Positions 5,701 to 42,600 of a stretch of 64,000 bases of DNA are shown here, one piece after another. The notes below the pieces were generated by a model that ran no database searches, was not told the origin of the DNA, and was given only the letters and a program-made list of their open reading frames with translations. A program made the translations under genes and the position numbers. The DNA lies in the NCBI GenBank assembly GCA_903813345.2, contig CAIIXF020000009.1:21913759-21977758 (forward strand). Reading direction: 5' to 3'. This DNA comes from Owenia fusiformis. Lineage: Eukaryota > Annelida > Polychaeta > Sabellida > Oweniidae. The stretch's first letter is position 1, and every line of letters starts with the position of its first letter.

Positions 5701-5960
5701 TACAATTGATCTCTTTGACACAGTCTATCATAAGTTTACAATTGATCTCTATGACACAATCTATCACCAGACTACAATTGATCTCTAAGACACAATCTAT
5801 CACCAGACTACAATTGATCTCTAAGACACAATCTATCATAAGGCTACAATTGATCTCTAAGACACAATCTATCATCAGGCTACAATTGATCTCTTTGACA
5901 CAGTCTATCATAAGTTTACAATTGATCTCTATGGAACAGTCTACCACCAGGCAACAATTT
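5700..5960. repeat. Return to 36-bp satellite monomers, ~7 copies
   Basis: 36-bp units of the type CAATCTATCACCAGACTACA + ATTGATCTCTAAGACA flank the higher-order block on its right side. They fade into unique sequence by ~5990. Confidence 0.85.
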
Positions 5961-6670
5961 ATCTCAACGGAACTAAATCTGTCATCAACCTCAAAATTAA
6001 TCTTTTTGGGTAATCATTATATGTTGTTAATGTAATCAACTTCTCTATAGCAACAAGTCAATCATGTGTTCATTTTTTCCAATTTATTTTGATCATAGGC
6101 AACATAAACATAAAACATGTAGAAACAATAAAAATACATCAAGTAAAATTGTATAGTAAAAATACATCTACTATTTATACTGGTATAGCTACCCTGAAAA
6201 TCACTAGTAGTATCATACTACCATACTAAGTACCCTCTGATAACCACAAATAAAGGAAGGTATGATATAGACTGGACAAGAAACCAGCATTTATGGCAAT
6301 TTGTGGTACTTGATTTTAGACCATGTAAATATGGCACTAATCTGCTAATGGGTTTACATGATTACCATGAACTAGTCTATAATCTTAAAGTTTTTAATGT
6401 TTAATCAGTCAATAGCCCAATTTACACTACACGCAACATTCCAAGACGTCTTGGCTAAAACTATATTGAGTTTTCAACACTATTTTCAAGATGTCTTACG
6501 AAGTATGACTGAGCTTTCTTGGCTATGGCTAGGGTCCTAAAACGTTTTGACAAAGCACTCTAAGCCGAGAGCTCTTGAGAAAAAACGCTAAAACGTTTTA
6601 CCCAAGACGTCGCAGGGATTTTAATTTAGTGTAAATCCAACTATTGAGATTTGAAAACTATAGGATAGAC
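5961..6670. other. Downstream flank / 3' UTR of EBP
   Basis: No coding exon. On the minus strand, an ATTAAA hexamer at 6625-6620 lies 46 bp after the EBP stop, and an AATAAA at 6088-6083 lies farther down. Either could be the polyadenylation signal. Confidence 0.4.
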
Positions 6671-7092
6671 CTAGTATTGTTTTTTCTTCTTTGGATTTCT
6701 AGATTTTGGTGCAAATGATTCAATTTTGTTCTTTTTATCAAAAATCTCTTGTGCTACCATTAAGTTCCTGAATGCATCTGCTACTAAAATTGCAGGGATA
6801 ATTATCCATATACTGTTGAGAAATACAAAATAAAACCAGAAATACAATGGATGCCACATCTCTCCATGTTTGAACCCATCAAAATAACTTGTCATGAAGT
6901 ACAAGACATCGCCATAGAGTTGACAAAGAGATACAGTGAGCTGCAGTGGGTAGCGGAGAGGATGTGATTTAACGAATGCAACTGTAGTTAGTATGCAAAG
7001 GGGTCCATCTATAAATGCTGTGATTGTCTCCATGCACACTGTGAAGTTATCACTGGCAATGTATCTGCTGTCACCAAGTCCATACTCCTTCC
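6671..7092 (-). CDS. EBP: EBP coding exon 2 (residue 97 to stop)
   Basis: Follows a TTACAG acceptor at 7093-7098. It opens with the W-K-E-Y run expected from the family, contains GDSRY and CMETIT, and ends with the lysine-rich tail and stop at 6671. Confidence 0.95.
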
Positions 7093-8038
7093 CTGTAAGT
7101 AAATCATTTATGCAGCTGTTACACTAGTTATAAAAACATGAAAAATTACATTCGATACAAGTACAATATAATTGCATTATTTAAGGATTTAAGCCCTGGA
7201 CTCAGTGTATTGTGTGCTGAATCATTGTTGTTGTTTCCAAATCTTTGCGTGATCATGCAGTGGGAATGCAAAGTTTACGAAGGAACGCCTGAGTGGAATG
7301 AAGCAGCCACTTAATGTATTGGAGTCTTGGGCCTATTAAATTCACTCCATACATTGCACAATTTTTCTAGGAAATCACCTAAAAGAACTCATTTTCAAAG
7401 AAACTTTTTGCAAGGATCAAGAGTTGGCAAGGTATCAATTTCACTCTGGAGAGTCAAGTTGTCAGCTTGCTTAAATGGGATGATTGATGATATTATATAA
7501 TGCACTGCAGTTAAATGAAATACTGTGTCCAGATTGGCTGGAATCAGACCAAGTGCCTATCTACATGTATGTGTGAATTGCATTTTATATTGGGTTGTAT
7601 TATAAATTGTTGCTCATATGGATTGAATTGCATACCATAATACTATCATCATCTAATTCCTATATCATTATACTGCTCACCCTTTGAACAAATCCCTGAT
7701 CACAAAATTCCAAAACATTAATACTTACACATCTGAGCAAGAAGAGTCTGCTCTCCAGCCAAGGTCCTGTGAAATACACTAAAATAACCCTCTAGAACCA
7801 TGTGAATGAGTCCACTAACAACCAGCCAAATCAGCTTTATCTTCAGTAGCACTCCTAGTCGCCCATGTTGCATCTTGCCTAGTATCAACCATGTTGCAAT
7901 CAGCACAAGCGTAACTATGGCAAAGAAGATCCCAAGTATTTCTAGTAAAGGCTTGGTGTTTGGCTCATAGTGAGGAAGTTGTAAGGATGATGGTAGGTAA
8001 GGATGGTCTCCAGGCATAGCTTAACTTGTAAAAGCATG
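6671..8038 (-). CDS. EBP: EBP: 3-beta-hydroxysteroid delta8-delta7 isomerase (emopamil-binding protein)
   Basis: Isomerase of late sterol synthesis, moving the C8-C9 double bond to C7-C8 in the ER membrane. Exons 8017-7729 and 7092-6671 join T|GG into a Trp codon and give 236 aa, close to the ~230 usual for the family. Hallmarks seen: an IH...EG pair (His72, Glu76), the block [19 protein letters not shown] (about 103-121) carrying Glu118 and Thr121, and the [11 protein letters not shown] membrane segment. These match the family's catalytic and ligand-binding positions. Four to five hydrophobic spans are visible. The C-terminus is lysine-rich and ends KKQY, a KKxx-type ER retrieval signal. The coding exon begins after an acceptor at 8039, so a non-coding first exon is likely (8226 upward). 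An out-of-frame ATG sits at 8037, upstream of the chosen start at 8017. The gene is head-to-head with the NDUFA3-like gene. Confidence 0.95.
7093..7728 (-). other. EBP: EBP intron
   Basis: 636 bp with GTAAGT donor and TTACAG acceptor on the minus strand. No other feature is recognised inside. Confidence 0.85.
7729..8017 (-). CDS. EBP: EBP coding exon 1 (residues 1-96 plus one base)
   Basis: Starts at the ATG at 8017-8015 and ends ATG-T before a consensus GTAAGT donor at 7728. It encodes the N-terminal segment and the first two to three membrane spans, including His72 and Glu76. Confidence 0.95.
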
Positions 8039-12890: not shown

Positions 12891-15591
12891 CTGTATAATT
12901 CAATACTAACATAGATTATAGAATTAATGACAACATAATAAATAGCTGTATTGTTATAACATAGCGATTAAAATATTTTATTTTTTACATTTATAAAATC
13001 TGAGTTCTGAACTTTTACAAAAAATATACACATACTTACACAGGTACATTCCACATGTGACTAGATTATAATCAAACATGATGCCTTCAATTTGTTAAAT
13101 ACATAAATAATAGTTTTTCAGATTTTATTTTTAACATGATTAAAAAGCATGAATAAGCAGTAAATATGAAAGGGAAGGGTACATTACCAAGTTGCTAAAA
13201 AACCTGTACAAACACTTCATTGTAAAGGCTAGATCTATTGAAACTTAGTATTTCTAAATTTTGACTTTATATTTGATTCTTAATCTTAGAACCTATATAC
13301 AGACAAATTATCTGCAAGACAGAGGTAGTGAAGGTTACTTTTATTTGAGAGTAAATATCAATTCATTAATGACAATGATCTTCAAAATGCTAATGATATT
13401 ATCAACAGTTCTCTTCTAATTCAAGTACACAATAATTGTATTTCTCAACTCCAAAAATTCCTTTTTTGGATGGATTGTACAGGATTCCATCGTTTTATCT
13501 CTTATGTGAATGTTATGTATTACATCATTTTAAATACCTTTTTTTTGTAAAATGTAATTAATCTCCAACTGTAGCCTGCCTTAATAGCACATGAAGATTT
13601 CTGGTAAGAACCTTCGTAAATATTCCTTGATGAACAATAAAATGTATTTTATAAAGCATGAGATAGATTTAGTGAAGTATGGCACATGCAAAACTACTTG
13701 TAAAACAGCAACTCCATGGAGTAGCAAATTCTGCCGAACATAACATGTTATATCAATTTATTATTCATTTGATATATCATACCAAGCTATGTGTGAATTA
13801 TTTTTATTTATCTAATTAATAATTTGCTACAATTATATTCTTATTTATACAATTTACATCAAATTCAATGATGGTATTTGAAAAAACCAACTAAAGATGT
13901 GCAAGTGGATGAGCAGAAAGACACTTGTTTTCCCTATATGTATATCCCAGCTAAAAAATTTATTTTGGTAGGATAATAGACATCTGAATACCACTCCTTT
14001 TCTTTTGACACTTTGGAAAAACCTGAAAACAGTCTCATAACTGAGGTATTATAATGCAGGCACTTTTCTGTTGAAGGAACTTTGACTTTTAAAAAATAGA
14101 ATAAAAAAACAGTTTAGTTTAACATTATTTCATCAATAAAGGCTCTTTTCTCAAGGCAGATGCATGATCTGAATAAATGATACACAATAAATACTACATT
14201 TAATAATAATGTACTCTACAAGTCGGCCAAGAATGCCCATATTTTCAAATTTGCCAATAAATGTTTAATATTTAGACATATATTTTAGAAACATTTTTAC
14301 TGATATAATGTTGATCAAACAAAAATCATACTGTCACTTTAAATGGGACAAATTGATTTTTGTACATTCCATCTATAAAAATGTAATATCAAATTAATAT
14401 TAATCGTTCTTTGACATTTGCATCCATACCTATTGTCTATTCGCTAAAATAACTGCTGAAAATATACTCATAGCATTTTAAAAACTATTAGGTATATAAG
14501 TGACTAATGCATCTTCAGCCACAATATTCATGAAATCTATCCCTTATTATCATTAACATATTTATAGCAAAATAAAAAATATGGATGTTTTTGGCCCACA
14601 ATGTATAGGCCTGATTACTATGTACTTAATGTATTCAAAAAACTTTGTACATTTTTTATTTTACAAACGATTGCACAACCTATAAAATGTACACAACCTT
14701 TATTTTAACATGGTTAAATTCTTATGATTGATTAACATATAATTTTATTTTGTGATAATGTGAGGTCATCAATATTCAATTTTAGTCTGTAATACACTGA
14801 CGGAATTCTACAACACATAATATAATCATAGGTGAAAGACCCCACATACTTTTCAACTGCTTGGAAGATGAATGAAGACACCATGCATGAATGAACAATT
14901 CCCTGATGATACATGTATATATACAAGAATGCAATGATGAATGTTAAAGCAAAAATATTTTCAATACAAACAATTATTTTTAATATTTTACTCAACTAAT
15001 GCTATATTATTCTTTACTTCTCTATGCTCAGATAACCATTGTGGTTGGGCATCTGATTTTTTCATTTTCAATTTAAACTTTTTTTAACAGAAAGACAAAT
15101 ATTTTATTCTTTGTTTGAAGACTCAAAATGTAGCAGTAGTATTGTGTGGACTTTTCATCCCAATGGTCATAGTAAGCACCAGCTCTACTCATATGTAAAA
15201 CCCAATTTTTAGTGTGTGAATAAAAATTGATTATACACATCGGCAAATATTTTTTGATTACTTATTCAGTCATAGTAGTAATATATTCAGCTGCTAATTA
15301 TGATTCATCAGCGGCATATTTCATTATGGCCAACTTTTAAAGTCACAGTGATAAATACATTTATTCTTAATCATTGATATTTGAGTAAGTTATGTACCGT
15401 TATGTCTATCCAAAACAACTCATATCAAACGCAGAACAATATCTCGTATTCCATTCCAATCTCATATAATTTAGAAATGCTGATCATTTTCAACAACATG
15501 TATGATGTCTAATCTCGTGATATGATTAGAACTTGTTATTTCTACATGTTCAGTCATACGGAATTGTTATTTCCACATGTACATTTATTTA
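12891..15591 (-). other. Downstream region / probable 3' UTR of PRKG1
   Basis: 2.7 kb of very AT-rich sequence beyond the kinase stop codon. No exon of any other gene is recognised, and several minus-strand AATAAA-type hexamers are present. How much is transcribed cannot be told from sequence. Confidence 0.45.
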
Positions 15592-15687
15592 TTAGAAATT
15601 TTCATCCCATCCTGACATCTCATCTGGAGGAATATCTACGTCTTTTGGATAATTATCAAAGTTGCTGAAGTCAGCTGGACCTTTTAC
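15592..15687 (-). CDS. PRKG1: PRKG1 exon 17 (residues 717-747 and stop)
   Basis: Encodes [20 protein letters not shown] then [11 protein letters not shown] and TAA at 15594-15592. Confidence 0.96.
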   Translation of the reverse strand, partial: VKGPADFSNFDNYPKDVDIPPDEMSGWDENF

Positions 15688-18600
15688 CTGGAAATATACC
15701 AGAATTTGAGTTATCCAGTGCATATATACATTTGAAAAATTGTTAAAGGTAATTGAACGCCATTGAGTTCAATAATAAAAAATATGCCATTATAATTTTC
15801 AACTGAGTTAATTTATTAAAGTATGTTGTTTCTTACCTTTGGTACAATTGGAGGAGTAAGTGAAGTTCTGTTGAGACCATCCCAGTCAAAACCTTGGAAC
15901 CACCTGAAACAGTACCCCAAATATAGTCTCACTCCATATTATGCATCATTGTTTATCATCATCATAAAAGACAATCAAAGCACAGAAATTGTGAAGCATT
16001 ATTTTGAGAAGCAAATTGTTGATATTGTCTGCAATTATTAGTTACCAGGTTATAGTGAATAGTCATTCAAAACACAACTTAAAATGTTTTTAATAGGCTA
16101 ACACAGCTTATAGGTCTTTTTATTGCTTGCTGTTTTCCAACTGTTCCTTTTTCGTTTCCATGCAATTGAAATATTATGAATCAAAATTGATATTACTACC
16201 CAATGCACAATGCCACAAGCATGCAATATAAGGTGTATGTCTTACTTGTGTTTCTTAATATCTGTGATGCCGTTTTTCTGGTAACCCAACCTTTCACTTG
16301 GGTTGTCCTTGCAAAGTCGTTTAATGAGAGTATGTGCATTACGGCTAATACGTTTGGGGAATTCTATCACATCAATGCCTTTTAGGATTATGTTGTATGT
16401 TTTCATAGGATCTGCTCCTGAGAATGGGGGACTGCAATGGAAATACTCATAGTTCTCTTTAGGGTTTCTTAGACATTTCTTTCATAAAAACAGAGAGGTG
16501 AATATTCATACATATGTAATACACCTCTCCCTTTAATCCCTTCATTCAGTCATTGCAGAAAATAGCATGTTATTATCAATTAAGTAACTTAATTTGCTAC
16601 TTAGTAATTTAGCATTGGTGGCAGCGGTGGGATATCTAGGATACCCACATTACCGACTCACTATACTAGAAGATCAAGCGATTGTTTTATACCTTCCTGT
16701 TAGTAGTTCAAACATGAGTATTCCTAGAGACCAATAATCAGCAGCATGATCGTGGCCTTTGTTCAGGATGATTTCTGGGGCTACATACTCCGGTGTTCCA
16801 CAGAAAGTCCATGTTTTACGACCAGCACCAATCTTTTTGGCAAAGCCAAAGTCAACCTGAATGACATAACATTACTGTATTTTTATTGCTTTGTTTTACC
16901 CAAAATTTCTGCACAATTATTTTGCTTGTGCAATGCACAACAGGCACAAAATGCGTCCCCTTTCAATCTTTTCTGAACTTTCAAAGAAAATCTACATTTT
17001 ATCAAAATGGCTGTCAAGATTTTGAAGGACAGTTCTCAGCACGTTTTCACAAAGTAGGGATTTGTGTTTACTGATTGTTTGTATTTAAAACGTTTAATGT
17101 CATAGATCAGGGAAATGAATGTTTCCTTTTCACCACATAATGGTCCCATTTTACGTATACAGTGAAACCTGTAAAGTGGAACACCTCTGTAAGTGGAACA
17201 CATTCAGAGTCTCAAGACTAATTGAATTAATGAAATGTGAACCTGTAGAAATGGAACACCTCACAGGTGGAACACTTTTTAGAGGTACCAAAGGTGTTCC
17301 ACCTGCTGTATCTTACCAATTTGACATAACCCTGGTTGTTGAGCAAGAGGTTCTCTGGCTTTAAGTCACGGTATATGATGCCGTGGTTGTGTAGATATTG
17401 GAACGCCTCAACAACACAAGCCACGTAAAACCGTGTTGTCTGGTCATCAAAACTACCTCTATAATCACATTCAGTTCATTCATTTATCAATGAGGTCCAA
17501 AAAATCCAATTAAAGTACATAAATTATAGACTATTTTTCACTCTAAAGCGAGCTAGTAGCAATTTAGTAAAACGAATGTCAACAATATTAAACAAGCTAC
17601 ACATTCAAGCAAAGGTTGCCATTTTTGCTTTATCATCTTGAGAATTTGATAATGTTGATGCGGTTTAGTGACAGTTTGAGTAAATATACATACTGTATTC
17701 AAAAAGATCAACTACCAACCTGTCTCTAAGAATGGTCCAGAGTTCACCTCCCAGACAGACCTCCATCAACATATAGACAAACTTTCTATCTTTGTATGTC
17801 TTAAATAACCTAGAATATAACAGACAGGACATTATATAGGCAAGGTTAGGGTGTTTGGGGTTTATCGTTTCAAGTTAAAACGACTGACAGTTTGGGCATG
17901 TCAGTAACTTTAACTAGCCATAAGTTTCCTCCAAGGGGGTTAGAGTCACAATCTTTCGCAAAAAATGCCTTATTCAGTTTAAGGAGAAGCCAGAAGATTT
18001 AAAGTCAAAAGATAAACTACGAAAAAAAGTTTAGGGCGGGGCAGATCTGTTTTATTTCTTTGGACTATAAGAATCTTAATTCATCATGCAGCACAGCACT
18101 GTAAGGGGGTTGAGCATCCTCAATTAGCGTAATGTCAGAATATCCACAGAACAAAAATAAGGAATAAATATTCACATCTTGTATCCACATACCTAGCTAT
18201 AAATTGACACTTTGCGTCAGACATGATTTTCTTCTCTGAGAAGATGTGCTCCTGTTGCCGTGTATCTACAATATGTTTTTTCTTGAGGCATTTCAAGGCA
18301 AATGTTTTGCTTCTGTCTGATGATACTTGTACCTGGAATCATATAATGTGAAAATGGTTGTTTCAAAAACATTGTGTCGTGATGATATGATATTGTGATA
18401 TGTGTCATTAGACACATTTCGCACAACGTTTTTAGCTCGACGCATCTAAAATCCGCAACGAATTCACTAGATTTAAATGCGTAGCAGTTCAATGAAAATG
18501 AGATGCGGTTGTGGATACGTTTTAGCATGGGCTTCAAGGTAATTTTTTGTGCGAAACCACTCTACTATCCAACTTTTGCACATACTAAGTTACTTTAATC

Positions 18601-21600
18601 ATTTGTTTTACCTAACACACACGTGTCACGCTGAGAAACCTGAAAAATGTATGTAATCCATGTGTTTCAAATTGTAATGAATCCAGAACATCAAGTAAAT
18701 TCTTACTATAGGAGCTTGGTCAATAGAAAGGTGACAATATTAACTATAACTAATGACCAAAAATCATATGACATCTTTATCAACACATATGGAGATTCCT
18801 TACCAGCTCCACTCTTCCAAAGCCTCCCATTCCAAGAGTAACCACAACCTCCAGATCCTCAAGTTTGATTGGTGAATATTCGTCTTCCAATTGACGACCT
18901 TCGTAATCATTGGATTCTGTACTGTTTCTGAAAAATCATAGTTTCCGGTTTATTTTCTTGTCTATCGTACTAATAAAAATTAATAATGGATATTTTAAAA
19001 TCGTATATGATCTAGTGAGGCTATTATATTAATTTATTCAACATGAAATGTTCATAAAGTTTTGTAAGCATAAATGTGTCGACACTTTTTGAAGACAGTG
19101 ACAGACAATTTGTAAATGGATCTATTTCAGGCTATGAGGGGTAAGGTAAACCATCATCTACTGATCTTTGTGCCAAAGGAAAATAGAATGCTAGGCCTAC
19201 ATGTACATGTACTTTGTTAATAACATATCATTTCATGAGCACATCTATGCTAATTAGCTAACTGTCAAACAGTAAGTTAGTTTGTTTGTTAACCCAACTG
19301 AAATAATTTAAAGTAAAGCAGTGTAACAAAATATAAATTTCACATGCAAAATTAAACAAGAATGGTCCATGAAATGATATCATTATAATGAACATCCTTG
19401 TATATCATAACAAAATAAGTTGATGCTCATCAAGCCATTTATACCATATCGTTTGATTTTAGCAACATTTCAAATCATCTTACAGTAGGTCGGCACATTT
19501 AGTGAAGATTGAAATAAGAATATTTTGTCATACTAATATCACACTTTCAGCAAAATAAAATAGGGTCATTCAAATCAGGATAGCGCCATCTATGTTAACA
19601 TCAAGCGAACATTCTTAGATTTTGGGAATACATACACACTCACTCGAGTATAGTACCAGTCCCAATAATTTGAGATTCTGCAAAATTTAACCAGCAAATC
19701 TGTTAATAATGATGATTTTCGTGTACGTATAGACTAACGTGAGTGGAGAATCTATTATAAATAATCACAAGAATTCTGAAAAGAAGGAGTCCAACACCTT
19801 GGTGCTATTGGAAAAAAGATTATGTTCCTATGTCCTGGCAGATGTAATGTTTAATAAGTAATGGTACAGATTATGGTAGGTGTCTAGAAGGTAAACAAGG
19901 CATAAACATGCAAAATATCACCACCTGCCATTTGTTACAGACGCCGACCACCGAACGTTAACCACCGAACACCAATAGCCGAACTCTGAACAAGGTCCAC
20001 AAAAAGAGACTATAACAATATGTCACCGCTTGTGATGGTGACATAATATAAACAAACCAAGAATGTAGTTATCATCAGAAAGTATCCTTAAAGATACTAT
20101 AGGCAAAGAAAGAAGTCCCTAATAAACAAGATAAGAGAACGGGAGATGAGTAAGTACATGATTCCAAAGGTAAAAAGAGCAACAAAAGATACGAATAAAA
20201 ACATCGTCTTTACTAATCAGTTATACTAAATCCATAAATTATATATCGAGGATTAGATTAGATGAATGGGGAATCGGGTTGGTCTAATATGTGATGTCAT
20301 ACCCATTTTGATAAAATGTGCTATTTCCATAAATGCTAACACACCTGCCAAGAATTACAAAAACTTATAACCACTTTAACTACCAACGATACTCACTCTA
20401 TTGATGGTGAAATCACCCTGATATTGGATATGAATAATTAAATACATTTAGAAAGATTTTGAATTAATCTAATTTAGTAGTCAATGCATAACATTATAAG
20501 GTCCAGTATTTTGTACTGTAAAATGTTTCATCGTTCGTGGATTGTCTCGTATAGGTTCTAAGATGTTTTTTACAGTGTAATGTAGTACAGTGCTGGAAAC
20601 CTTATATGAGGGAAATAGTGCATTGTTTCTAGCTGGAAAATGTGTGCATATCTGTAAAATCATCAGCTAAAGTGATTCATATAGAAATACCATGCAAAAC
20701 AATTGAGTGAAATAAGAACAATTTAATATAAAATGTGCATGTAAATGGATGGATATGTCTAGCATGCTTAACGGTAAATTTAAATGTTCAGTTCATAGAC
20801 CAAAGAAAATCTGATTCCAAAGTCTCACGCCTAACCATCATCAACGTACAGCGTCAAAATGTACCGCCGTACGGTTTCTCTGTATGTTGACGTTTCCGCC
20901 ATTTTAAGTTTTGACGGAGGGAGAGAGTAAGGTAAGAAACATGTTTTATTTTATCAATATCGAGTCAGTTCACCAATCAGTTCTATTGCAAATATGCATA
21001 TCTACCTCAATTGATCTACATCAACATTATTATAAATTAGAAAGTAAATTTAAAGGTTTTTCAAGAGAATGCTGTATTTGTTACACTTTGATGAAATCGT
21101 ATAAAATTCCCTTCGATTAACTTTTGAAAACCCACATCGTAGTTTTAAGTTCAAATCGGTTACTTTTGTCGTACAGAAAACTATACGACGGTATTTTTGA
21201 CGCTACGTTGTCAGATAGTTAGGCATGAGTCTTGCATCGTTGAAGACATATGGGTCTGTTTTAGAAAATCACACTAATGGACTATCCTTTTACTGAATTT
21301 TCATAGGTCTACGATTCAATTTATCCATTCTTTTCACTTATTGGAATACAATATTTGACAGATAAACTAATTCAGTGCAGTGTTTTAAAGATTTAAACAT
21401 GCAAACATTTACGGGTTTTCTTGACTGTATAAGTCTTACCTTTGTGCGCCCCTAGCTTCGTCGCCATAGTCCTTCTCCCTCAGTTCGTTTAAGTCTCCTA
21501 TTAGCGTATTGAAAGAACTAAAAGAAATGCAATTAAGAAATATTTGATGACTTAATTAAGGAATAAATAATGATAGGCCATTCAATATGGTGAAATTCAG

Positions 21601-24600
21601 CACAAGTTGGACAGAATGTTGTACAAAGCACGAACCGAAGGTGAGTGCATTTGTACTAAAGATTGTATGGCCTATCATTATTTATTCCTTAAATATATGC
21701 GATACCATACGTAATCTTTGAGAAACAGTCTTTTAAATTTGAAGTCTGAAGGAATGATAAGCCACTTGTCCCCAGTTATATTTCTTGATCTTTTTTCGTT
21801 GGGACACTTGAATAATGAAATGGAAGTAAGGACGAGCGCCCACTTTCGTAATTAGAATGACGTTCGTAATTAGAATGAGGTCACTTACTCTCTGTCTACT
21901 GTTAGACACTCTACACCAGGGGGCAGTGCAATGACGTTGGCTGTTCTCCTGTCCTCACTGTAAATGAACAAAACAAATATATTGTATATGTTTGTATTGT
22001 ACGTTTGTAAATAAATACAATAGGTCACAGTAGGTTAAGGTCACATATCTACTCGAGGTCACTCGAAATGTCAAAGGTCAATGTATGGTTGCATCACAGA
22101 GGATATACGTCCCTATGCCGGAGTATTTTTATTTGTTCACATTAAGAGCTCAAGGTCAACATCCCTTTTTATTTTATAGATATTACGTAAGGTACATGCA
22201 CTTTAACAGTATAGACTTTACATTTTATGTTTTCTGTGACTATTATCATTATGTCAAGAGAGTTTAGAGGGCAACGTAGTGTAAAGAATCGGCTCCAGTC
22301 GAGCTAGAAGTCCAACGCGCTGTCCATTGCCCCACAAAGTCATATGTAATGGAATTTGAGAAAAAACACAATTTTCTTCCATATTCATAACTATATCGAG
22401 ATTGGTTAACTTAGGTTATATCAGAAAGAAAACGTATACATTTCAATCAAAATGATCTACTGGACATGTAGTTGGGACACAATATCGAAAAACAACTTGA
22501 AACTTGTCTTGTGGAAAACCTTTCTGTAGGGAACGCCTGTCAACAGCAAAAGAACACAATATTATATGGTGAACTAGTCTATATGAACACACGTTTTTCT
22601 TAAATCAGTCATAAAAAATTCTGAAAATTTATATCGTCATGGTCATCTTTTGAATGGAAACAATATAATTTGAAAAAAAATATATGTACTTTTCTCTATA
22701 GTGTTTTATAAAACACATCAGACACTTCTTTTGTTCTTGGTATCATATGTTCGGAAGGAAATATCTATCCAAACCTCATTGGAACAAAACGACATTAACA
22801 CAACGTGTTTAGGTCCCTCAATATTGCAAATGTACAAAGGAAAGTTTGGTTGATTTTAAAAAAGTATCTTGTTCATGAAATAAAAGGTTTATCTTCATTT
22901 TTAGCTATTTTGGGGAGATTTGTTTTAATTTTTTAAATACTTTTTGTAAAATCAACCAAAATTTCCTTTGTATAACTATATATATTATTGAGAGGTCTAA
23001 CAGAACGTCGTATATGCTATTTTGTTCCAACAAGGTTCGGAAAGACATTTTATTTCATTCTCAAGAATTGGGAGAAAGGAACAAAAACAATTGCACTAAA
23101 AAACGAAAAATGTTAACAAAAACAGTTATATAATAAAAAAATTATATAAATAATTTCCAACGATGAAGTGAAATTCAATGCATGCACGAAATCAATAAAG
23201 TTACTTTTATTTCATGTCTTATCATACGTAGTAATAGATTGCTCTCATTATCAATCCAGTAATATTCTTGTATGCATGAATAGGATAGTTTCTAAATAGC
23301 AGAAAAATCAATGAAATCTCGTGCTGCCATCTTTTATTCAGCTTTTAACTCTGGCTAGAGCTCCATTCACTTACATGCTAAAATCTTGGAAAAGTGGCTT
23401 AATTTCATGATTTATCAAAGTGTGTTTGTTGAATCTGTATAAAACTTGAATGATATACCACATGATGACCCTGTTTATGAACATGTTGTGATTAAACATG
23501 CTAATGTTGATTGACATACAAATAATCCACGGTTTTAAAGAATTTTAGCATTGCATCTATGGACATTTGGCCCAACTTTTTTTAAATTGTCATAGAAAAT
23601 TATTCAAATTACATAACTGTGTAAATCAAAGCTATTTTAGGAGAAAACATTCCACTGAATTCAAATATACCATTTAAAAGAAGGTAATGTAAGTCATTAG
23701 AGGTCTAATATGCAAGTCTCTTAAAATCTCACGAAAAACGAGATTTAGCGAGATTTCAAAAGCTATATGGAAACTATACTATTGACTCTGTTGCGCAATG
23801 GATAGCGCGTTGGACTTCTAGCCGTGATAAACAAAGTGATTCAAAGGTTGTGGGTCCGAGTCCCACCAGAGTTCATAACACTTTTGTTAGAAGACAAACG
23901 GAACAGTGATATTCAATGCATACACGAAATCAAAAAAGTTACTTTTATTTCATGTTCTCATCATACGTAGTAACGGATTGCTCTCTTTATCAATCCAGTA
24001 ATATTCATTGTATGCATGAATTGACTCTGTGGCGCAATGGATAGCGCGTTGGACTTCTAGCCGTGATAAACAAAGTGATTCAAAGGTTGTGGGTTCGAGT
24101 CCCACCAGAGTTGATAACTTCTTTTGTTAGAAGACAAACGGTACAGTGATATTCAATGCATACACGAAATCAAAAAAGTTACTTTTATTTCATGTTCTCA
24201 CGATACGTAGTAACGGATTGCTCTCTTTATCAATCCAGTAATATTCATTGTATGCATGAATTGACTCTGTGGCGCAATGGATAGCGCGTTGGACTTCTAG
24301 CCGTGATAAACAAAGTGATTCAAAGGTTGTGGGTTCGAGTCCCACCAGAGTTGATAACTTATTTTGTTAGAAGAAAAACGGTACAGTAATATTCAATGCA
24401 TACACGAACAAAATCAATAAAGTTACTTTTATTTCACATTCTCACGATACGTAGTAACGGATTGCTCTCTTTATCAATCCAGTAATATTCATTATATGCA
24501 TGAATTGACTCTGTGGCGCAATGGATAGCGCGTTGGACTTCTAGCCGTGATAAACAAAGTGATTCAAAGGTTGTGGGTTCGAGTCCCACCAGAGTTGAAA

Positions 24601-27600
24601 ACTTCTTTTGTTAGAAGACAAACGGTACAGTGATATTCAATGCATACACGAAATCAATAAAGTTACTTTTATTTCATGTTCTCACGATACGTAGTAACGG
24701 ATTGCTCTCTTTATCAATCCAGTAATATTCATTGCATGCATGAATTGACTCTGTGGCGCAATGGATAGCGCGTTGGACTTCTAGCCGTGATAAACAAAGT
24801 GATTCAAAGGTTGTGGGTTCGAGTCCCACCAGAGTTGATAATTTCTTTTGTTAGAAGACAAACGGTACAGTGATATTCAATGCATACACGAAATCAATAA
24901 AGTTACTTTTATTTCATATTCTCATGATACGTAGCAATGGATTGCTCCCATTATCAATCCAGTAATATTTATTTATGCATGAATTGACTCTGTGGCGCAA
25001 TGGATAGCGCGTTGGTTTTCTAGCTGTGATAAACAAAGTGATTCAAATGTTGTGGGTTCTAGTCCCTCCAGATTGTTAAATGACAAACGGTACAGTGATA
25101 TTCATTGTATGCGAGAAATCAATAATGTTATTACTCATATTTCATGTTCTCATGATACGTAGCAATGGGTTGCTCTCATTATAAATTCAGTAATATTCAC
25201 TGAACGCATGATTAGACTCTGTGTCACAGTGGATGGCGCGTTGGACTTCTAGCTGTGATAAACAAAGTAAATAGACGCAAAATCATTTTTTTGACTCCTA
25301 AAATTATATTTTTTAGGAGTTGAAAAATGATTTTGCGTCACCTGAACTTACCTCAACAGAGCTTTTTCGCCAAAATAATCCCCTCGTTTCAACATTCGTA
25401 TTTCTTGCGGTTCTTCTTTTCCGGATACATTTTGTGTGACACGGACCTTGAAAGAATACCATTTTGATTTATAAGAACAATAAAAGTGATTAATAAATGT
25501 ATCTCTTCTTCTTTCATAATAATGTTTAATAATTACTAGTAACAGACAATGATCTTCCGTACACAAAAGCCAAAAAAGAAAAGGAAACCGTGTTCTTACC
25601 TCTCCTTTTCGGATGATAAAGAAAGTATCACCAGTTTCACCCTCTCGTAATATATACTCGTGTTCATGGAAGAAATCCTATAATATCAAAGTGTTACAAT
25701 CATGATAGAATACCAAGATTATTATATCATTCTCCATTCTCCAGCGCCCCATTGTGTTGTTTTAATTGGACTATACTAACCAACAAATATATTTTAACAG
25801 CACAATATTATCTCTTAAATTCGAACTTTGGCACACACTACCATAGGCTATAACTGTACTAATTGTTACACAGCATGCAGTTCATACATTTCTGTATCAT
25901 ATACATACTGATCCAATTTCAATATCTACTTACAACTTCAAGCACATCTGCAATTTTGGCAAGTTTGTCTGTAGGCAGCTTTTTCAGTAAAGGCACACTG
26001 AAAACAAGAGAAATTAATTGAAACGTGTTGCACATTTCAGTCTCATTGACATTCAGGGTATCTGCTGCATTTGGTTAAACAAGCCAAGTCAAGCACCGTA
26101 TTGAAAAGGGTAAGTACAGTTTGATTGTGCAAGGTTATTGCCAATAGACTAGATGTGAGTAGACTAGAAATAATCTTTTTTTTATTCATAGAAAAAACAT
26201 TTGAAAGCAGTTACATTAACATATACAATATACATAACATCATGGAAGTCACACAATTTTCCATCATATTCTTTTTTAAGGCATCTAACCACACTAGTCT
26301 AATCTAATCTAGTACCCATAATTTCCCACCTTTTTCTCTGCCTATTCGCTTATCAATATTACAATAGGATATTACATTTGCTTTAAATCCTATAAAGGTA
26401 CAATAGGTCTTAACATCGAACATTTGCATAGGTTCACATATCTTTTAACGTCCTTAAAAATTCAAAATTCTGTCAAAGTGATATCAAATGTGAAATATAC
26501 ATGTAAAATCACATCTAGAAATGTGGTTTTAAAAACTGTTATCAACTTTGAAACTTTAATTTTCCTTGAAAATGTGACATTTAGGTTGTGAAGATTCCCC
26601 CATAGACCCACGTTATAAAATAAAAAAACGCATCTTGGTAATTGTACCGTATATAGAATGACTTCGAGGGCTGTCAATAGATGCTACTCTGGCGGACATT
26701 GTAGTTTCATCATTCACGATTTCTACATTATACAGGTCAACGAACAAAATGATACTTTTGGACGACAGGTTGTAACAATGATTTTCCTCAAATAATTGTG
26801 TAGGCTTCATTTTTACAAACTCATATCAATCACCTGCTTGGCATAATTTCCAGATATATATTTTCACACTCTGGCCTTGGTTGGTATGTAAACATACAAC
26901 TGATCGATACAGTCGTATTATTGATCAATGTTGTATGACATACGGTCAATCTGTCACTAATTACTTTTCACTGGTAAGGGAGCTGAATAATTTCAAATTC
27001 ATTTGTTTCTAGGTTACCTTAGGAAACGTGATATCAATTGATTTTTTGTCATGAACTGACTGCAATGTGACTTTAGTTTTACATGTTTTCAATATCTCGA
27101 TCTTCCCGATGGTTTTGATAATTAGCACTTCGGAAATGTCATAATTTCACAATTATTGTGGTTTGAAAGAATGGTCAGTAATATGGGATCGATGCCAGTC
27201 TAGGCTACAGGGCTCAGTTGCTTGGATTAAATCCACTGGCGGATAATGGGGGGGGGGGGGGGGGGGGTAAATTTTGAAGAAAATGGGCCTCAAAATTTGG
27301 GCCCACTTTTGTTTTTTAGGGGCCCCACATTTTTTTCTCTGTCCCGAAATTTGCCCCCCCCCTTGTTGGTTCCCAGATCCGCCCCTGAAATCATTCCCTA
27401 TGTGCTCTACTATAGTTCCACACGGGGAGTCATTACATTGTCAATCCCATTACATCTACTGCAATACAATCCACTCCATAATTATTCAGTGGTATTGATA
27501 TACTAATACTAATAATTGATACCTTCTGAGAAAACGAATATTTTCTTCTTGTCTTTGTAGACCAGTTTTCATCATAATCGCCTGGAAGACTCGTCGGTCT

Positions 27601-30600: not shown

Positions 30601-33600
30601 GTGAAGTAACGCAGAGGCGTAGCTAGCCCATTTTGCGAGTGTACGCCCGTATGATTTCCCGGTTTTATCAAAATTAACAAAACGATGGTTCCATAAAATA
30701 GGAAAATCCCGGGTGTTCAGAAGATAAGGGACACACTAAACACTCTTTATTCAATGAGGGAAATATGTATTGTTTGATCATTTTGACATAGCTTTTTAAA
30801 GGGATTGAATTAACTGTATTAACAGATAATATTCGGGAAACAAAAAATACAGATTCTATATAATCATGCCATCGGCGATCGAAGCCGTCTATCAAGGCGA
30901 TTTTATTTTTTAGGCTACCTAAAACTGTATGTATGAGACTCACTGTTTTAAGCTTTTGTGGTCATTCTCCATGAAATATTATTATTTTTTCTGTGTTTGT
31001 TTTTATCTAGCTCACAAGATGATTAACAATAAAAGAACAGTTACACGACCGTCTCAACTCCATTTCGGATCTTAACAATCTGTACGTGATTCTATAGAAT
31101 AAATTCTATCTTTCTGTTTTTTTTGCATTGCGAACATGTCAATAACAGTATCAATGTTTATATCCTGTTCCCTATGGATATGTATCATGGCCAAGGAAGA
31201 AGGTCTTTCCTCGTTCATTGTGGAACGCAAGTATGACTTAATGCGTTTCAAACTGCTAAAGCTTCGTTCAGCCACGCAAGTGGATACTGGCAATGTTAGC
31301 AGCTGGACCAAACACGTGTAGACATCGGGGTAAAGAGGCTGGGGGTCTGTTGAATAATCTCCTATCGATTTCTATCTCTTGGTAAAATATTTATTTTTCA
31401 TCACAATTAATCAGGTAAATTTTATTTTTCCTTAAAATTTGAGAGTACGCCTGGGCGTACTTGGCGTTCACGTAGCTACGCCACTGAACGAGATTTAAAT
31501 CTAGGTAGGGACCTAGGATAAAGAAAAGACAATACGTATACTGTTACACATGTGGATTCAACCAGGATAACAAATGTGGACATGATGCAATCTAACAAGG
31601 CTTTATGTTAAAAAGTCATATCATCTGAAAAAGTACACTTGGATACACAGCACGGCGACCTTTGTAATGACAAAGGATTATATTTTTGATACTGGCTGTC
31701 TTCCTGGTCCAAATTGACGATGAGACTTTAAGTAGCAATTTTATTAATGTGTCAGAGTAAACTAATTTGATTTTGATTTAAACAATTGATATAATTGATT
31801 ACGACATTTTGAAAGTACAGTCTGGCCCAATCTAAATGACTTTACATTTGTATTCAAATTATGTTTTTATAGCATTTCAAGCGCTTTTCATGAAAGTGAT
31901 GTACTCATTTTTTCTGGGCCAACCTGTATGTTCGGTTTCATGAATAGTTGGCGTAGGCAATAAGGAATAACGCTAGTTATTTCTGTAGATTTAGCAGATT
32001 TGAGGTAAGGTGTGCTCCAAATGGAATGAGCCTCTCTGACATATTTGGGCAAAATGTTACTTTTTTTTAATTTTGAGTTACATCGCACTTACTGATAACG
32101 ATCGTGAATGCTCAGACACCCGATTTCCTCCATTTGACTAGGTCTAGAGGCGAAATATGTCATAAAACTGTTGTAAATATAAAGTGTACTTATGTTTGGA
32201 CCCTGTTATTATGCTATCGCTGCTGTTAAACTGTTAAGGATATTTGGGAGCTCGAAAATTAACAATTTGAAATACACGAGGTCCAAACTAATAAAATTAC
32301 ATCCTAACATTTGTTCTAAATAACTCGTCTACTTCATTCAAATCATTGGTCCACCGTTTTTCTCTCTGTTATACACTTCCCTTCCCAGTTTCCCAGTTTT
32401 AAGGGGGGAGGAGACAGAAAACAGGAATACTAAGTTAATAATTAAATCATAAAATTATCCCATTCTCGAACTCAGCGAACTCATAATCAATCATTTCATG
32501 TTTATCAGCTCAAATGCAGAGATTGTGCATTGCTATCATGTAGAATCAATCACCGAGCAACCAACAACGAATGTGTACATTATAAACACATCTTGTACTT
32601 TCCATCACAAGGAAACCTGAATGAAAAACATTATAGTTGATAACAATCCTCGTGAAAGAGATAAGAGAAAACAAAATGCACAGACACTCGTAAACAAAGA
32701 GCATGAAATTGGATTTATCTTTTTCAGCTCCTGATATCAGTGGCATTATCATAATGACCATAATGAAGATGTTACAATTCATAAGAGTTGGACTAGTTTC
32801 ATTTGCCAGCTCAAGTGTACTAGAGATAAGCAACGTATGGCATGTTTTGAAATGAATGCCATCCCAGGCTTTACGTTTTGTGTTGTATTGCATCAACAGA
32901 AGGGCTGCGATTTGATCTGTTTAACACTTTCATCTGACTGATCATCCAATGCTTTCTGATCAAACATTTTCATGCATCAAGGGGGTAACTAGGATACTGA
33001 GAGCAGATCGAACAATTTTTCAATACTATTGTCAGATAAGTCAGACCTTGAAAAATATTGTAAAATTGTGACAATTCCACCAAAATACATTAATCCCCAA
33101 CACATGTTCACGTGTATAAAGAATGCGGACCTTGAGAACACAAATCGCCTCTTTTCTACAACTGTTTAAAAACATCCAACCAGTGGCGGATCCAGGAACC
33201 AACAGGGGGGGGGGGCAAATTTGAGTTCAGAGAAAAAACCTCCGAAAAAAATTTTGGGCCCCTAAAGCCGAATAGTGGGCCTAAATTTTGAAAATTTGAG
33301 GCCCATTTTCTTCAAAATTTGGCCTAAAATTAAAAAAAATAAGGCCTTAGAAGGCCCAATAATGACCAAAAGGCCCACTTTTTGGGGCCTTAAGGCCTTT
33401 TTTGGCCTACATTTTTTTTGGGCCCAACTTTTTTTTTCTGGGCCAACCTTAGGGGGGGGGCATGCCCCCCCCCCCGGATCCGCCATAGCCAATCATTAAA
33501 AATATTGAAAATCCAAGCAGTCCATCAATCCAGGCGACCCATCTTATACCAAGTTATGAAGTTTTCATACTTGATTGAAAATCAAACTGATAAGTGAGTA

Positions 33601-36600
33601 TGTGAGCCAACACCAACATACAATTCAAACACCATGGCGTCTATGTTATGTAGAAATGTACGGTTGTTACAAATTGACTTTCAACTGTTTTTGATCTATC
33701 CCTTTAATGATATATCGATGTAATGTCAACACTTCGCGGTCGTATACGATTCTAATTACAGTATTTACACGCCTAACCATCGACAAGGTACAGTCACGTG
33801 ACAGGTGACAAAATCTGCCGTAGTACACTTTTGATGTACTATGTCACTATTAACTGATTTTGAGCGAAGACCATGATGTAGGTTCGATGCAGGTTTGCAA
33901 AAATAAATTTTAGGAGAACACAAAGGATTTTATGTTTGATTTCGCGTGCATTCGATTTCAAAGACATTTATTTTTCTAATAACGTTAAAAGATCTTCGAG
34001 CAGTGCTCGATTTTTTTCGTTGTTAGTCTACCCATACGATTCTTCGGTTGGAAAAATGTTGTTTTTTACACATTTCCTTTGATAATTTTCTCCCCTGACG
34101 TCTCAGAGTGTCGAATATTTTTATGAGAATGTGTTTCTCTAAACTACACAGTTTAGGACAGGTGAACATTTAATAAACATTCATGCATTTGATATAATTT
34201 AAAAAATCAGAAATGTACGTTGTCAACTCCCAGTGTAATTGAAATACATGAGTTATAATATTAAACATTGCAATGATTTAATTTCAAAATGCATTAAGGG
34301 TTTTATGCGTTACAAGTGATGTTCAACGAAATGCTCCTGTATCCCTAGTACAGATAAACAGGTAAAAGTGATTTTTTCGTTGAATGCTATTTTATTTTAT
34401 GAAAGTATTAATATGGTGATTAATATGTGACCACGGCGTGTTTTCTTCCGACCTCTCTAACCACTCGACGTCCGTACGTTACGTTATGTTTAGTTGCACT
34501 TTTATGAATTTTAATAATCTTAAGGAGTTCATAGAGAGATCTTTACTAGCTAATCCAAGATGACTTTATGCTACAGGGTGTCCCGAAAGTATGGGCCCCC
34601 ATAGGCAGACATATACCAATGTCTCCATGTATGTGTCGTATATCATTTTAAAGCTCATCCAAAGTTACATTAATTTGCCGAGTATCATGGTTCAACTCAC
34701 AAATGGAAAAAGTTACAGGAATTTCAAAAGTTAGTGTTTGGACAAAATTAAAGTCAGTTTTACACCAAAACAATAGTCGGTGTGTCTCCTTAGCCGCCAT
34801 GTTAACAGCAGCAATACTTTCCATATATGATCTTAAACTGGCTTCAAATAGGGATATGGCGTTTTGTAATCTTCATAAAACCTTTTTAAGGCATAAGAAG
34901 AGTTTCCTTGGAGTATCTACCCTAAACGTCATCTTTTTAGAACTCGATATCCATATATTATCCTCGAGAATAGCATCCATATTTTCTGTCACATTCAGGT
35001 CAGGGCTGTTTCCAGGATACTGAAATGAACTTTTTGGCAAAACGCTAATTTTTGAAATGCCTGTTACTTTTTACCATTTGAACCATCATATTTGGCAAAT
35101 CAATGTAACTTTGGATAAGCTTAAATATGATATATGACACATACTATGGAGAAATTGGTATATGTCTGCCTAGGGGGGAAAGTGCAGAAGTTCAAAAGCC
35201 AGGGTTATGGAATACTAAAAAATTATTAGTAACATTGAAATTTAATCATATCAATGACAATTTTATTGATTAACGGACAAAATATTAGAGTAAATTTTTC
35301 GATATGCCAGCCCTATTATTATAAATTATTACTTTATTATCAAATATGTTCCTTAATTACACGTACATTATAGCATTTCATTCATGTAAAATTAACTGTG
35401 AATTGAGATCTGTAAGGCCAATGTGACAACATACATTCGAGTTGACAACATACATTATCTGTTTTTCGTAGTAGCATCCAAAGTAAAAAGCGGTTTTGCA
35501 TTAACTCTGGATGTATATTTGTATACTTATCTTAAGTTGTGTTAGGCGTAGTTTGGCTGTTATTTGCATAGCAAAACAAAAATTAGAGAGAATTTTGCGA
35601 AATTCAGTCAAGATTTAGAGATCCCTGACGTACTGGGTAGATCTATAACAAGATATTGAAGTTGCTGAGGATCATTTGAAGTAGATGTGCATATTTGCAA
35701 CTTAATTACAAATCGAATGCAACAACTGCCTGATGATGAACTGACACAATATTGATCAAATCAATGCTAGTTCTTACCTCGCTTCCTCATTCTAGAAAAT
35801 GGCGATATAAAATGGCGGAAATGACATAGTACATCAAAAGTGTACTACGGCATATTTTGTCACTGTCACGTGACTGTACCTTGTCGATGGTTAGGCGTGA
35901 TTTATAGAAGATAAATCGGTCAATTTACTTAAAGCACGATAAATGGTCATGCATTCAAATGAAACTACGGAGTTTAGAAATCAAAGATGGCGCAAATAAC
36001 CCATGCTACCAAACTACACATGTTCAAGACATTGTTGGAGTAAGTTATTCACACATCAAGCATTTTTAATTTTGAGCAATGTATTCTATTTAATGCGTAA
36101 ATTTTCATAGAAAAATAATCATCATTTCATTTACTGTAATGGGCAATTGTAATCTTGAAAATTACATAAAATTCCCATCATGTGCATCGTGTCGTCGTCC
36201 AGATCGATATGAAATTAGATCATCATCGAATGTACTTATTGAGGAATGAATTGCTGATTGATTATGATACTTTACAAACAGAACTTGAATCTTGTAACAA
36301 GCCAACTTTAAAAGGATTAAGAAATAATATGCTGATCAATTTATGGGAGAAATAGCCGAGCACCTATATGTCACGATGACTTGTCAGTTCGATACACCAG
36401 CGGCTTATTTTCTATCGATCAAATTACCTGTTTAGATTAAGAACCGTTATATATTCTAACGGTGGGTTGATATGTTTCTATGATTGCCTGTCCGTCCGTC
36501 TGTCTGTCTGTCTGTTAATTTGTGTGTTTGCTGCTTAGAGGGACATTTGGTCCATTTGTATAGCTACTAACTCAATGATTTATTTCTTGAGTATATTTTA

Positions 36601-39600: not shown

Positions 39601-42600
39601 TGCTAGCATGTGGGACACCAGCTTCCACTTTTTTGAAAACTCCAATTTCACACACATCCTTGACAGGGGAGTATGCACCCTGTTTCAAACCTCCGGTCCG
39701 TTACTAAGGTGTCACGGATTGCTTCCTGGATTAGCATAACACGATGATACTTCAAAATGTAATCTTGATATTATACATCACACTGAGCAACGATAACTAT
39801 TTTACGAAATTAAAATGAATAAATAATGTGGTAAACTGCAAACACATCTTTCTCTAAGATCTTGCAAGCAGAAAAATTGCTCAGAGCAGTGAAATATTGC
39901 CCCACTTTGAGCAAGAAAACAAGTCACCATAACAACCATAACTTGTGACCAATCATAACAAAGTTATTCATTTTTTGTGTCTCAATATGTAACTGTTGAA
40001 ACAAAATACTGGAAATTATAGAATAAAAGCATTTTGCACCAACTAGGTTAAGGTATGAGAGTCGATTGTTATTTTTATTCTGAAGTTGATAATATTTTAT
40101 TATTTCTGATAAAAATATTGAACATCCTGGTATTTGTTTGTTATTCTTATACGTATCCATTTGGTATACAGTCTTGAAATAGTCAATATATACATGGTGT
40201 CAGCCGTGACCGTCTGTTGATTTCTTGCATGCATATCTTTGCCACTGCCAGTTAGTTAACAAACAATGGATTCAATAATACATTAGTATATGGTCTTGAT
40301 TACAAATTGTTTTCCATCAGGCAATGTCAATTGTACCTGAGGCCGTATCGGATATATCTGGCTGCAATATATCCTTGCAAAAATCACATTGGAAGTCAAT
40401 ATTATAGATTTATAAGGGTAATTAATAAAATATGCTGTATTTCAGGCAAGAGCTCAATCACAAAATATGTATTTCAGTTTCACTGTTCCACAACTGGATG
40501 ACTCTAACTGCAGTTAGCTTCATTCAAGATGGTGGACAAAATTCGTTCGTTTTCGATAAATCTCCAATTACAGCCAAACCAAGCTGAATCTTGATCCCAA
40601 AAGTTTCGCCATGCAAACTAAAAAAGATATAATTGTAAACAACCACAAATAAAGGCTCAAGCACCCACGATATTAGAGAAATTGAAAGAAAACGGCTTCA
40701 CTTAGAATGACTCTAACTGAGGTTGATAATGAAGCTAACTCCAACACAGATTTCACCATTGATGATTCTAACTGAATGGAGATTTATAATGGGCTATACA
40801 AATTACCAATAAGCAGTTCCGTAACCAGGGGAAGCTGGAGGTTCGGTAGTTTCCCCCTCCCTGGCCAGAAATTATTTCAAATTCCCGCAGGTTTTCACCA
40901 CTCTGAGCACTTTTCGCACGATTTTGAGTGGGCTTTGTCTTGTTATGTAACCACGTGACCACAGATGATGCCTTCCAATGATACTGGTGGTTAATTGTTC
41001 TGTGTAAATATTAAGTAGTTGGTGTGGTGTATAGTGTTGGGAGTGGTGGCTTAGACCATGTCTTGAGACATTACCTTTTATGGACACGCATGGTCATGCA
41101 ATCTGTGTCAATTGGTTAGAGGTCTCGTTGATTGGACCTGGGAGATATGGTCTAGTATCTAAGTTTCCCCAAACCATCGTCAGTTCTTATGTGACAGGTA
41201 GAGTATATTTAGTTGATCCTAGGATGATGCCATTAGTGGTGACATCTCCTATTGTCATTAATGTAGAGCGGCCGGACATCTCGATCCTGTTGCGGATCCT
41301 CTCCCTTATATGTTGGTCATAATAAGGGCCCAAGATGTTTCGAACTCATGGGGGTATTCCATGATATGTTTCTCATCAATGGCCAAAGAAAAAAGGTTAA
41401 GAATATAGTGAGGGTTACTTTTTCCTGTTCAGGTTACGCGTTTCGCGGGATTGTTATTGGTTTCTAGAAAACGTTGTTTTGCTGGGTTAGGTTTTGTTTT
41501 GGGATTGTCTCCAGTTGGAGACAGTTAGTTGGGTGCTAAGTAAATTGGTATCATAGTTTGGTTGTGTTTGTAGATTGTGCCTGATTGTATTTAATAGTGT
41601 AATTTAATTGATTTAGTATTGGGTTGTGTCTGACTCTGTAACTGTGGTTGGTGTCAGGTTGTGTTGTAATGATTCAACAATGGGTTGATTTGAATTCGGT
41701 CTCGTTGGCTATGTTGTATTGTGTTGGTTTGTTGTTTGGTTGTGTTCCATTGTGTTAGTTTGATAGTCGATTGTGTTTTGGTGGTTGTTTGTCTGGTTGA
41801 GCCTGGTTGTGTTGTGTAAGTTTGGTATCGGGTTGTGTCTCATTAAGTTATGTTAATTTCAAAGTAGTTGTGTTATATTGTAATTGTGTTGTGCTGGTCG
41901 GTAGCGGGTTGTGCCAAGTAGGATGAAGAATGTGGTTGTGTCAGATTGTGTTGCGTGATTGGTGTTGTTTTCAGAGAGTGTTGGTTGGGTGTTTTCGTGT
42001 TTCAGTTTGGTTGTGCCTGATTGTGTTTTGATTGTTTTGTGTAAAATTGTGTTGTTCTTCGTCAATAATGGGTTGTGTTTTGGTTTTGTTGTTTTATTAT
42101 TTGGTTGTGCCAAATTGTGTTGCGTATATTTGACAATTGGTTGTGTTTTCGGAGGTTAAACTAAGGTTGTAGTATTGGGTTGTGTCGTATTGTGTTGTTG
42201 GCTTGTAGTTGGGTTGTGTCTGGTTGTTTATTTAGCCTGGTTTCGAGTTGTGCCTTATTGTGTTATGTTAATTTTAAAATGCGTTGTGTTATGTTGTGAT
42301 TTTGTTATGCTGGTCGGGGGGCAGGTTGTGCCAAGTCAGGTTAAGTATCTGGTTGAGTCCGATTGTGTTATGTGGTTGGTTGTGCCTGATCGTTAAATGA
42401 GGGGTGGTGGCGGGTTGTGCCCGATTATGTTAAGATAGGTGGTCGGTTGTGCCTAGTCGGGTGAGTTTATTTGGTTGTTTTCGGTTGAGTTGTGTGATCT
42501 CTCTGTGTTGGGGTTTTAGTTTGGTTGTTCCTGATTGTGTTTTGATAGTTTGGTTTGGTTGTGTGGTTGTGCCAAATTGTGTTGTGTTAATTTGACAGTG

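Follow-up and report, generated by a model that had tools for sequence, protein, structure and literature searches.

A window of 64,000 nucleotides from the annelid Owenia fusiformis (assembly GCA_903813345.2, contig CAIIXF020000009.1, positions 21,913,759 to 21,977,758 of the forward strand) contains a tandem array of tRNA-Arg(UCU)-like genes, which we consider very probably to be a nuclear tRNA cluster in antisense orientation within intron 7 of a PRKG-like kinase gene, with the anatomy and history proposed below. The array is real, and it is ordinary and well documented in kind. Newly found is a related array of 22 units, located elsewhere on this contig next to a partial copy of the PRKG gene. 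The two arrays share their edges and differ in their interiors, suggesting that they descend from one array that has since changed in unit number.

Anatomy of the window array and its host intron

The window array extends from 23784 to 25270 (window positions, unless a contig is named) and holds a truncated copy besides six tRNA-Arg(UCU)-like genes, arranged head to tail in units of ~240 bp, all on the plus strand. ARAGORN found six plus-strand tRNA genes from 23784 to 25076, the Rfam tRNA profile returned the same six, and Tandem Repeats Finder (TRF) reported a period of 240 with 6.2 copies over 23781-25268. Neighboring genes lie less than 1000 nt apart, which makes them clustered tRNA genes by the definition of PMC2888827. 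Delimited at the anticodon arm, the seven units start at the first positions of the spans given here. Units 2 to 5 (24023-24113, 24263-24353, 24507-24597, and 24747-24837) are complete in stems, boxes, and T-run, score 58.1 bits each, and are identical across the entire 91-base gene. Unit 1 (23784-23874; 49.0 bits) shows three differences from the array consensus, of which the A box and the B box contain one each. Unit 6 (24986-25076; 33.2 bits) is decayed, with pairs broken in three stems (acceptor, anticodon, and T), a single B-box change, and no T-run in the following 59 bases. Unit 7 (25215-25270; 56 bp) is a truncated terminal unit. A spacer remnant on the plus strand (unit 0; 23160-23281) is detached from the left edge of the array and carries diagnostic variants in common with the left edge of the 22-unit array. 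The original prediction, made from the letters of this window, had described a tandem tRNA array of seven units, four of them identical, intact, and intron containing, with decay toward both edges. Each of these points was borne out by the profile searches, the repeat period, and the comparison of degraded or truncated units 1, 6, and 7 with uniform units 2 to 5; the count of seven is right if the truncated copy is included, and the spacer remnant would make an eighth piece, set apart by an insertion of ~500 bp that the prediction had not noted.

Direct reading of the genes shows that the anticodon is TCT and that an intron of 18 bases follows position 37. ARAGORN, run with the bacterial code, assigned no amino acid name to the array genes, and we take them to be arginine tRNAs from the anticodon and from their likeness to known Arg(UCU) genes. 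With the intron removed, the cloverleaf stems (7, 4, 5, and 5 pairs) are complete in units 1 to 5 of the 7 window units, and the A box, B box, and T-run are unaltered in units 2 to 5. The box patterns used for scoring are the array's own consensus, which agrees with the A-box and B-box sequences of eukaryotes.

The host gene was traced by tblastn with a PRKG1 protein query, which gave 17 accepted coding exons on the minus strand between 15595 and 47195; four of the exon matches are weak when taken alone (E = 0.06 for exons 1 and 5, 0.08 for exon 8, and 6 for exon 9). Pfam detected cNMP-binding or kinase domains in four of the six PRKG stretches submitted, and one of these four, a kinase stretch at 16242-16481, fell below the cut-off. 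For two kinase exons the best PDB matches were PRKG1 chains, and the four listed included none of PKG II, whereas for one stretch of a cyclic-nucleotide-binding (CNB) exon the best match was a PKG II chain. "PRKG1-like" is the furthest assignment that these similarities warrant. Intron 7 (21958-25351, minus strand) is bounded by a GTAAGT donor at 25351, at the end of exon 7, and by an ACAG acceptor ending at 21958, after which exon 8 starts. These splice sites and the preserved reading frame between exons 7 and 8 place the array in intron 7 in antisense orientation, with ~80 bp between its right edge and the donor of exon 7. The predicted location in intron 7 of PRKG1 on the opposite strand thus stands as to intron and orientation, with the gene reduced to a PRKG1-like one; judged from the detected exons, the number 7 is correct unless a small exon was overlooked. 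Downstream of the kinase gene in its reading direction, an exon of the EBP (EXPERA) family is located at 6671-7123 on the minus strand.

A related 22-unit array beside a partial PRKG copy

Searched with a single unit, the genome gave 37 matches, which place the second array, of 22 units, at C9:21606262-21611485, on the same contig and strand as the window array and ~330 kb from it. Full units are confined to these two arrays, and six further places match the tRNA part only (nine candidates scored). The right flank of the 22-unit array is 94.8% identical to the window flank over an alignment of 2.1 kb that includes PRKG exons; the rightward homology reaches window position 30611 and then, past inserts in both copies, spans 31531-32312. 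The left flank is 97.3% identical to window 22933-23156, part of a dispersed repeat of ~590 bp (22564-23156) that ends exactly at the left edge of the array. Since the 39 other scored places of this repeat are 84 to 87% identical, the closer match fits a common origin of the two left flanks. In the ~22 kb left of the 22-unit array, the matches to the window region (BLAST rows of at least 150 bp) were all to dispersed repeats, and window 13000-23160, used as the query for homology on that side with E values up to 1e-20, likewise returned only dispersed repeats. The comparison covered 49.5 kb fetched around the second array, which contains no N runs; its printed rows were those of 150 bp or more, short array-to-array rows being left out.

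The PRKG copy beside the 22-unit array consists of stretches of exons 2 to 7, and its exon 4 carries an in-frame stop. No accepted match to exon 8 or to the kinase exons was obtained within the 49.5 kb, and genome searches returned no second near-identical copy of exon 13 or of exons 14 and 15; a diverged PRKG-like gene at C9:24.56-24.60 Mb, on the same contig, is 83% identical over exon 14. Between copy and window, 7 of 609 sites differ in the exon stretches and 122 of 4312 (~2.8%) in the remainder (P = 0.014), the exons being represented here by their tblastn-matched stretches, not whole exons, and none of the 222 sites differs in the three exons closest to the array. An earlier comparison of the nearest 2 kb, superseded by this fuller one, had given 0 of 233 exon sites and 44 of 1750 other sites. 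The difference between exon and nonexon divergence is about what would be expected of a constrained parent and an unconstrained copy, and we take the second array to have arisen by segmental duplication, followed by decay of the kinase copy.

The borders of the two arrays can be compared in some detail. In the window, a mobile element (23282-23780; at least 499 bp) with near-matching inverted ends (ATAGGATAGTTTC and GAAACTATACTAT) separates unit 0 from unit 1, and at the 22-unit array this junction is intact. Among the 40 of 1504 candidate genome places of the element that were scored, all are 100% identical (rounded) over positions 1-499, window included, and at least 13, again including the window copy, share the top score. 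On this evidence the element is young, and it has probably been active recently. A diverged relative (72.6%) lies ~4 kb left of the 22-unit array. On the right, an A+T-rich foldback hairpin (25274-25339) is located between truncated unit 7 and the donor of kinase exon 7 and has a predicted RNA folding energy of −36.8 kcal/mol; its shorter counterpart at the 22-unit array reaches −23.5 kcal/mol. An antisense remnant on the minus strand (22302-22341), a diverged 5' half of a tRNA-Arg(UCU)-like gene, lies ~820 bp left of the array remnant.

Gene completeness, proposed unit turnover, and alternative readings

When stems, boxes, and T-run are scored together, 14 of the 29 units in the two arrays are complete (4 of 7 in the window and 10 of 22 in the distant array). 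By stems only, 5 window units and 11 distant units are complete, and 6 of 7 and 20 of 22, respectively, score above the Rfam tRNA threshold. The truncated units (window 7 and distant 22) are included in the 29 and omitted from the box scores and from the 27-unit statistics below, and the A-box score of distant unit 21 is distorted by a register shift. Ten units across both arrays carry the identical 91-base gene.

The genome was searched with the 30-base 5' half of the tRNA, allowing up to three mismatches. Of the 34 sites, the distant array accounts for 21 and the window array for 6; the others are 6 dispersed genes and 1 antisense site, which is the only one near the arrays and lies at 22305-22334 within the remnant described above. 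A tRNA-derived short interspersed element (SINE) was rejected as a source, as 34 sites, 27 of them in two arrays, are too few for a SINE family. The dispersed genes were scored on stems and T-run, boxes excluded, and L010, which has 74 bases including an extra one, was left out of stem scoring. Four of the six (L006 to L009) have complete stems, and L011 has a broken T-stem pair; 16 of the 20 complete-stem Arg(UCU) genes are therefore found in the two arrays. The mature array tRNA differs from three of the complete dispersed genes only at the 6:67 pair, which is U-A in the arrays and C-G in those genes, both sides having changed, and from the fourth at 6:67 and at position 72. The two-sided change, with U6:A67 found also in L010, points to a working founder. 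As for the suggestion that the array could affect AGA decoding, it is plausible, with 27 of the 33 Arg(UCU)-like sites in the arrays and about half of the units structurally complete.

The right-edge units of the two arrays (window 6 and 7; distant 21 and 22) are related in detail: window unit 6 and distant unit 21 have a 14-base deletion in common, unit 7 is cut at the same point as the last distant unit, and other variants are also common to both right edges. The left-edge spacers and flanks are common to both arrays as well, and the interiors differ in unit types and number (7 versus 22). Because the edge variants occur in both arrays, both edges must be older than the split. The 22-unit interior is less uniform, with several unit types, and among its first 20 units the best pairs at spacings of 7 and 8 units reach 99.6% and 99.2% identity, respectively. 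Uniform interior, diverged edges, and unequal unit number, the features of a tandem array under unequal crossing-over, are all found here, and the interior differences and block identities would be the expected outcome of repeated unequal exchange or block duplication. The earlier proposal of unequal crossing-over, which had rested on edge decay, fits these data and is reinforced by a related array with the same edges and different interiors, although the mechanism is read from its products. Per-site nucleotide diversity among the 27 full units is low in the tRNA intron (0.032) and the mature tRNA (0.044) and reaches 0.105 in the spacer.

According to the explanation that we favor, unequal crossing-over (or another tandem exchange) between the 240-bp repeats would add and remove units, and as a result of this gain and loss the middle would stay uniform and the edges rot. 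The complete copies are predicted to be transcribed by RNA polymerase III (Pol III) via their internal A and B boxes, a step that we regard as likely when judged by itself; the transcripts would then be spliced and contribute to the pool of tRNAs that read AGA, for the most part without dependence on the kinase. That the array lies within a kinase intron probably reflects historical accident, and since the longer array adjoins an apparently dead kinase piece, a working kinase seems unneeded for array upkeep. The array may nevertheless have an incidental effect on kinase expression, as the original prediction had suggested.

Several observations weigh against this explanation. Across the 27 units, the proportion of variable columns does not differ significantly between the mature tRNA (27 of 73) and the spacer (70 of 149; P = 0.19); window units 2 to 5 do show a difference (0 of 73 versus 16 of 149; P = 0.0017), in a set preselected for identity. 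The occurrence of U6:A67 in L010, a defective dispersed copy (C194), means that the pair also exists outside the arrays, and assembly errors may have affected the tandem repeats. In Caenorhabditis, the pairing of intronic tRNA genes with their hosts is reported to be conserved and most likely adaptive (PMC4999229), which counters "accident" as a general rule. Fifteen of the 29 units are incomplete by stems, boxes, and T-run, and a damaged unit type has itself been amplified within the 22-unit array (as units 3, 7, 10, and 15), from which it follows that copies spread irrespective of function. Finally, in the tandem tRNA-Cys cluster of Arabidopsis, most genes (three of four) are silent, with no expression seen, though their promoters are intact (PMC10701932).

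The last three of these points are also what would be expected if the arrays were silent, satellite-like relics, whose units multiply passively with little or no transcription and leave the work to the dispersed Arg(UCU) genes. We judge this unlikely, though a serious competitor, given that the 6:67 pair was altered on both sides and that the 91-base gene has stayed identical in ten units across the two arrays despite ~2.8% divergence of the flanks outside exons. Much fainter is the chance that the array was retained because it regulates the kinase, through transcription collision, splicing, or chromatin, or because the kinase regulates it. Its antisense position at a distance of ~80 bp from the donor of exon 7 would suit such a role, as would the findings that intronic tRNA genes of Caenorhabditis elegans are affected by host promoters, that their pairing with hosts is conserved in the genus, and that those on the opposite strand have higher Pol III occupancy than those on the same strand (PMC4999229). 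Yet the longer array has been kept beside a PRKG piece whose exon 4 contains a stop and in which no kinase exon was detected, tandem tRNA-Lys arrays exist elsewhere in the genome, and the 44% of the 609 C. elegans tRNA genes that are intronic are no more than expected by chance (PMC4999229).

The second array might instead be a misplaced other haplotype of the same locus, in which case the two arrays would be alleles with 7 and 22 units. A divergence of ~2.8% outside exons (122 of 4312 sites) is presumably within the range of heterozygosity of some invertebrates, the three array-adjacent exons are identical, the copies differ by mobile-element insertions, and the homology continues, with interruptions, up to window 32312. 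We nonetheless hold this to be improbable, and less likely than segmental duplication: the 49.5 kb around the second array contain no N runs, on their left side the window region is matched by dispersed repeats alone (rows of at least 150 bp), genome searches returned no second near-identical copy of kinase exons 13 to 15, and exon 4 of the copy has an in-frame stop. Least credible of all, to our minds, is a combined scenario in which antisense Pol III traffic ~80 bp from the donor would tune PRKG expression or splicing, or PRKG expression would license the U6:A67 isodecoder, and decay of the kinase copy would have freed the second array to reach 22 units. A tandem tRNA-Arg(UCU) cluster with exchange between its repeats and its own predicted transcription remains the reading that we prefer.

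Neighboring features and known tRNA arrays

Other features of the window include a repeat of at least 1.5 kb (33760-35300), with 21 nearly full-length genome places at 95 to 98% identity and many partial ones, and a C-terminal fragment of a hAT family transposase (31072-31371, minus strand). Long tandem repeats, chiefly of a 36-bp type and with a GC skew of about −0.3, occupy 2096-5987, and the strand asymmetry at 42001-44000 is extreme (GC skew 0.52; AT skew −0.48).

A survey of 74 eukaryote genomes described rapid turnover of tRNA genes and their clusters, and as of 2010 tRNA tandem repeats had been reported solely in Entamoeba (PMC2888827). In the O. fusiformis genome, an Rfam tRNA search listed at least 33 matches, 19 of them within 1000 nt of another (63 of 33565 candidates scored); as the Arg arrays are missing from it, the list is far from complete. 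Tandem tRNA-Lys(UUU) arrays are present on two other contigs (L017, 645-3384; L018, 756-2292), one cluster with nine Lys genes and one Glu gene and the other with five Lys genes, and their reported repeat periods include ~234 to 238 and 365 to 367 bp.

A close parallel is the tRNA-Cys(GCA) cluster on chromosome 5 of Arabidopsis thaliana, like the present one a single-isoacceptor array of a few short units; it has units of ~420 bp that vary in number from four to six, an edge pseudogene, and, as here, putative transposable elements (PMC10701932). It differs in that it is found in a plant, serves another isoacceptor, and is not placed in a protein-coding intron in the passages describing it, whereas the present array is degraded at both edges and has a relative beside copied host exons. 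Amplification by Helitrons was proposed for the Arabidopsis cluster (PMC10701932). In O. fusiformis, dispersal by a Helitron or as a mobile unit is unsupported, whole units being found only in the two C9 arrays, although Helitron ends were not searched for. The human tRNA variable-number tandem repeat at 1q23.3 likewise consists of tandemly repeated tRNA genes, but its units are 7.3 kb long, GC rich, and CTCF binding and number 9 to 43 per allele (PMC4041453), in contrast to one gene per 240-bp unit here. The arrays of Entamoeba are tandem as well; there, nearly all tRNA genes are arrayed, with up to five per unit and short tandem repeats between them (PMC2652664). In C. elegans, tRNA genes are likewise found in protein-coding introns, 56% in host orientation, so that many are on the opposite strand, and Pol III occupancy of intronic genes is lower than that of nonintronic ones; these are single intronic genes, with no tandem array described in the passages cited (PMC4999229). 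Limited word searches of the open-licence literature returned no intron-nested tandem tRNA array, which does not imply absence from print.

For gene annotation, the window array is an ordinary case. Its interest lies in showing clearly, in natural material, the way in which a tRNA gene array changes. A single intron array exists here in two copies with measurable divergence, common edges, and different interiors, the one in an apparently working gene and the other beside an apparently dead piece of that gene. Should individuals differ in unit number, their dose of an AGA-reading tRNA could differ too.

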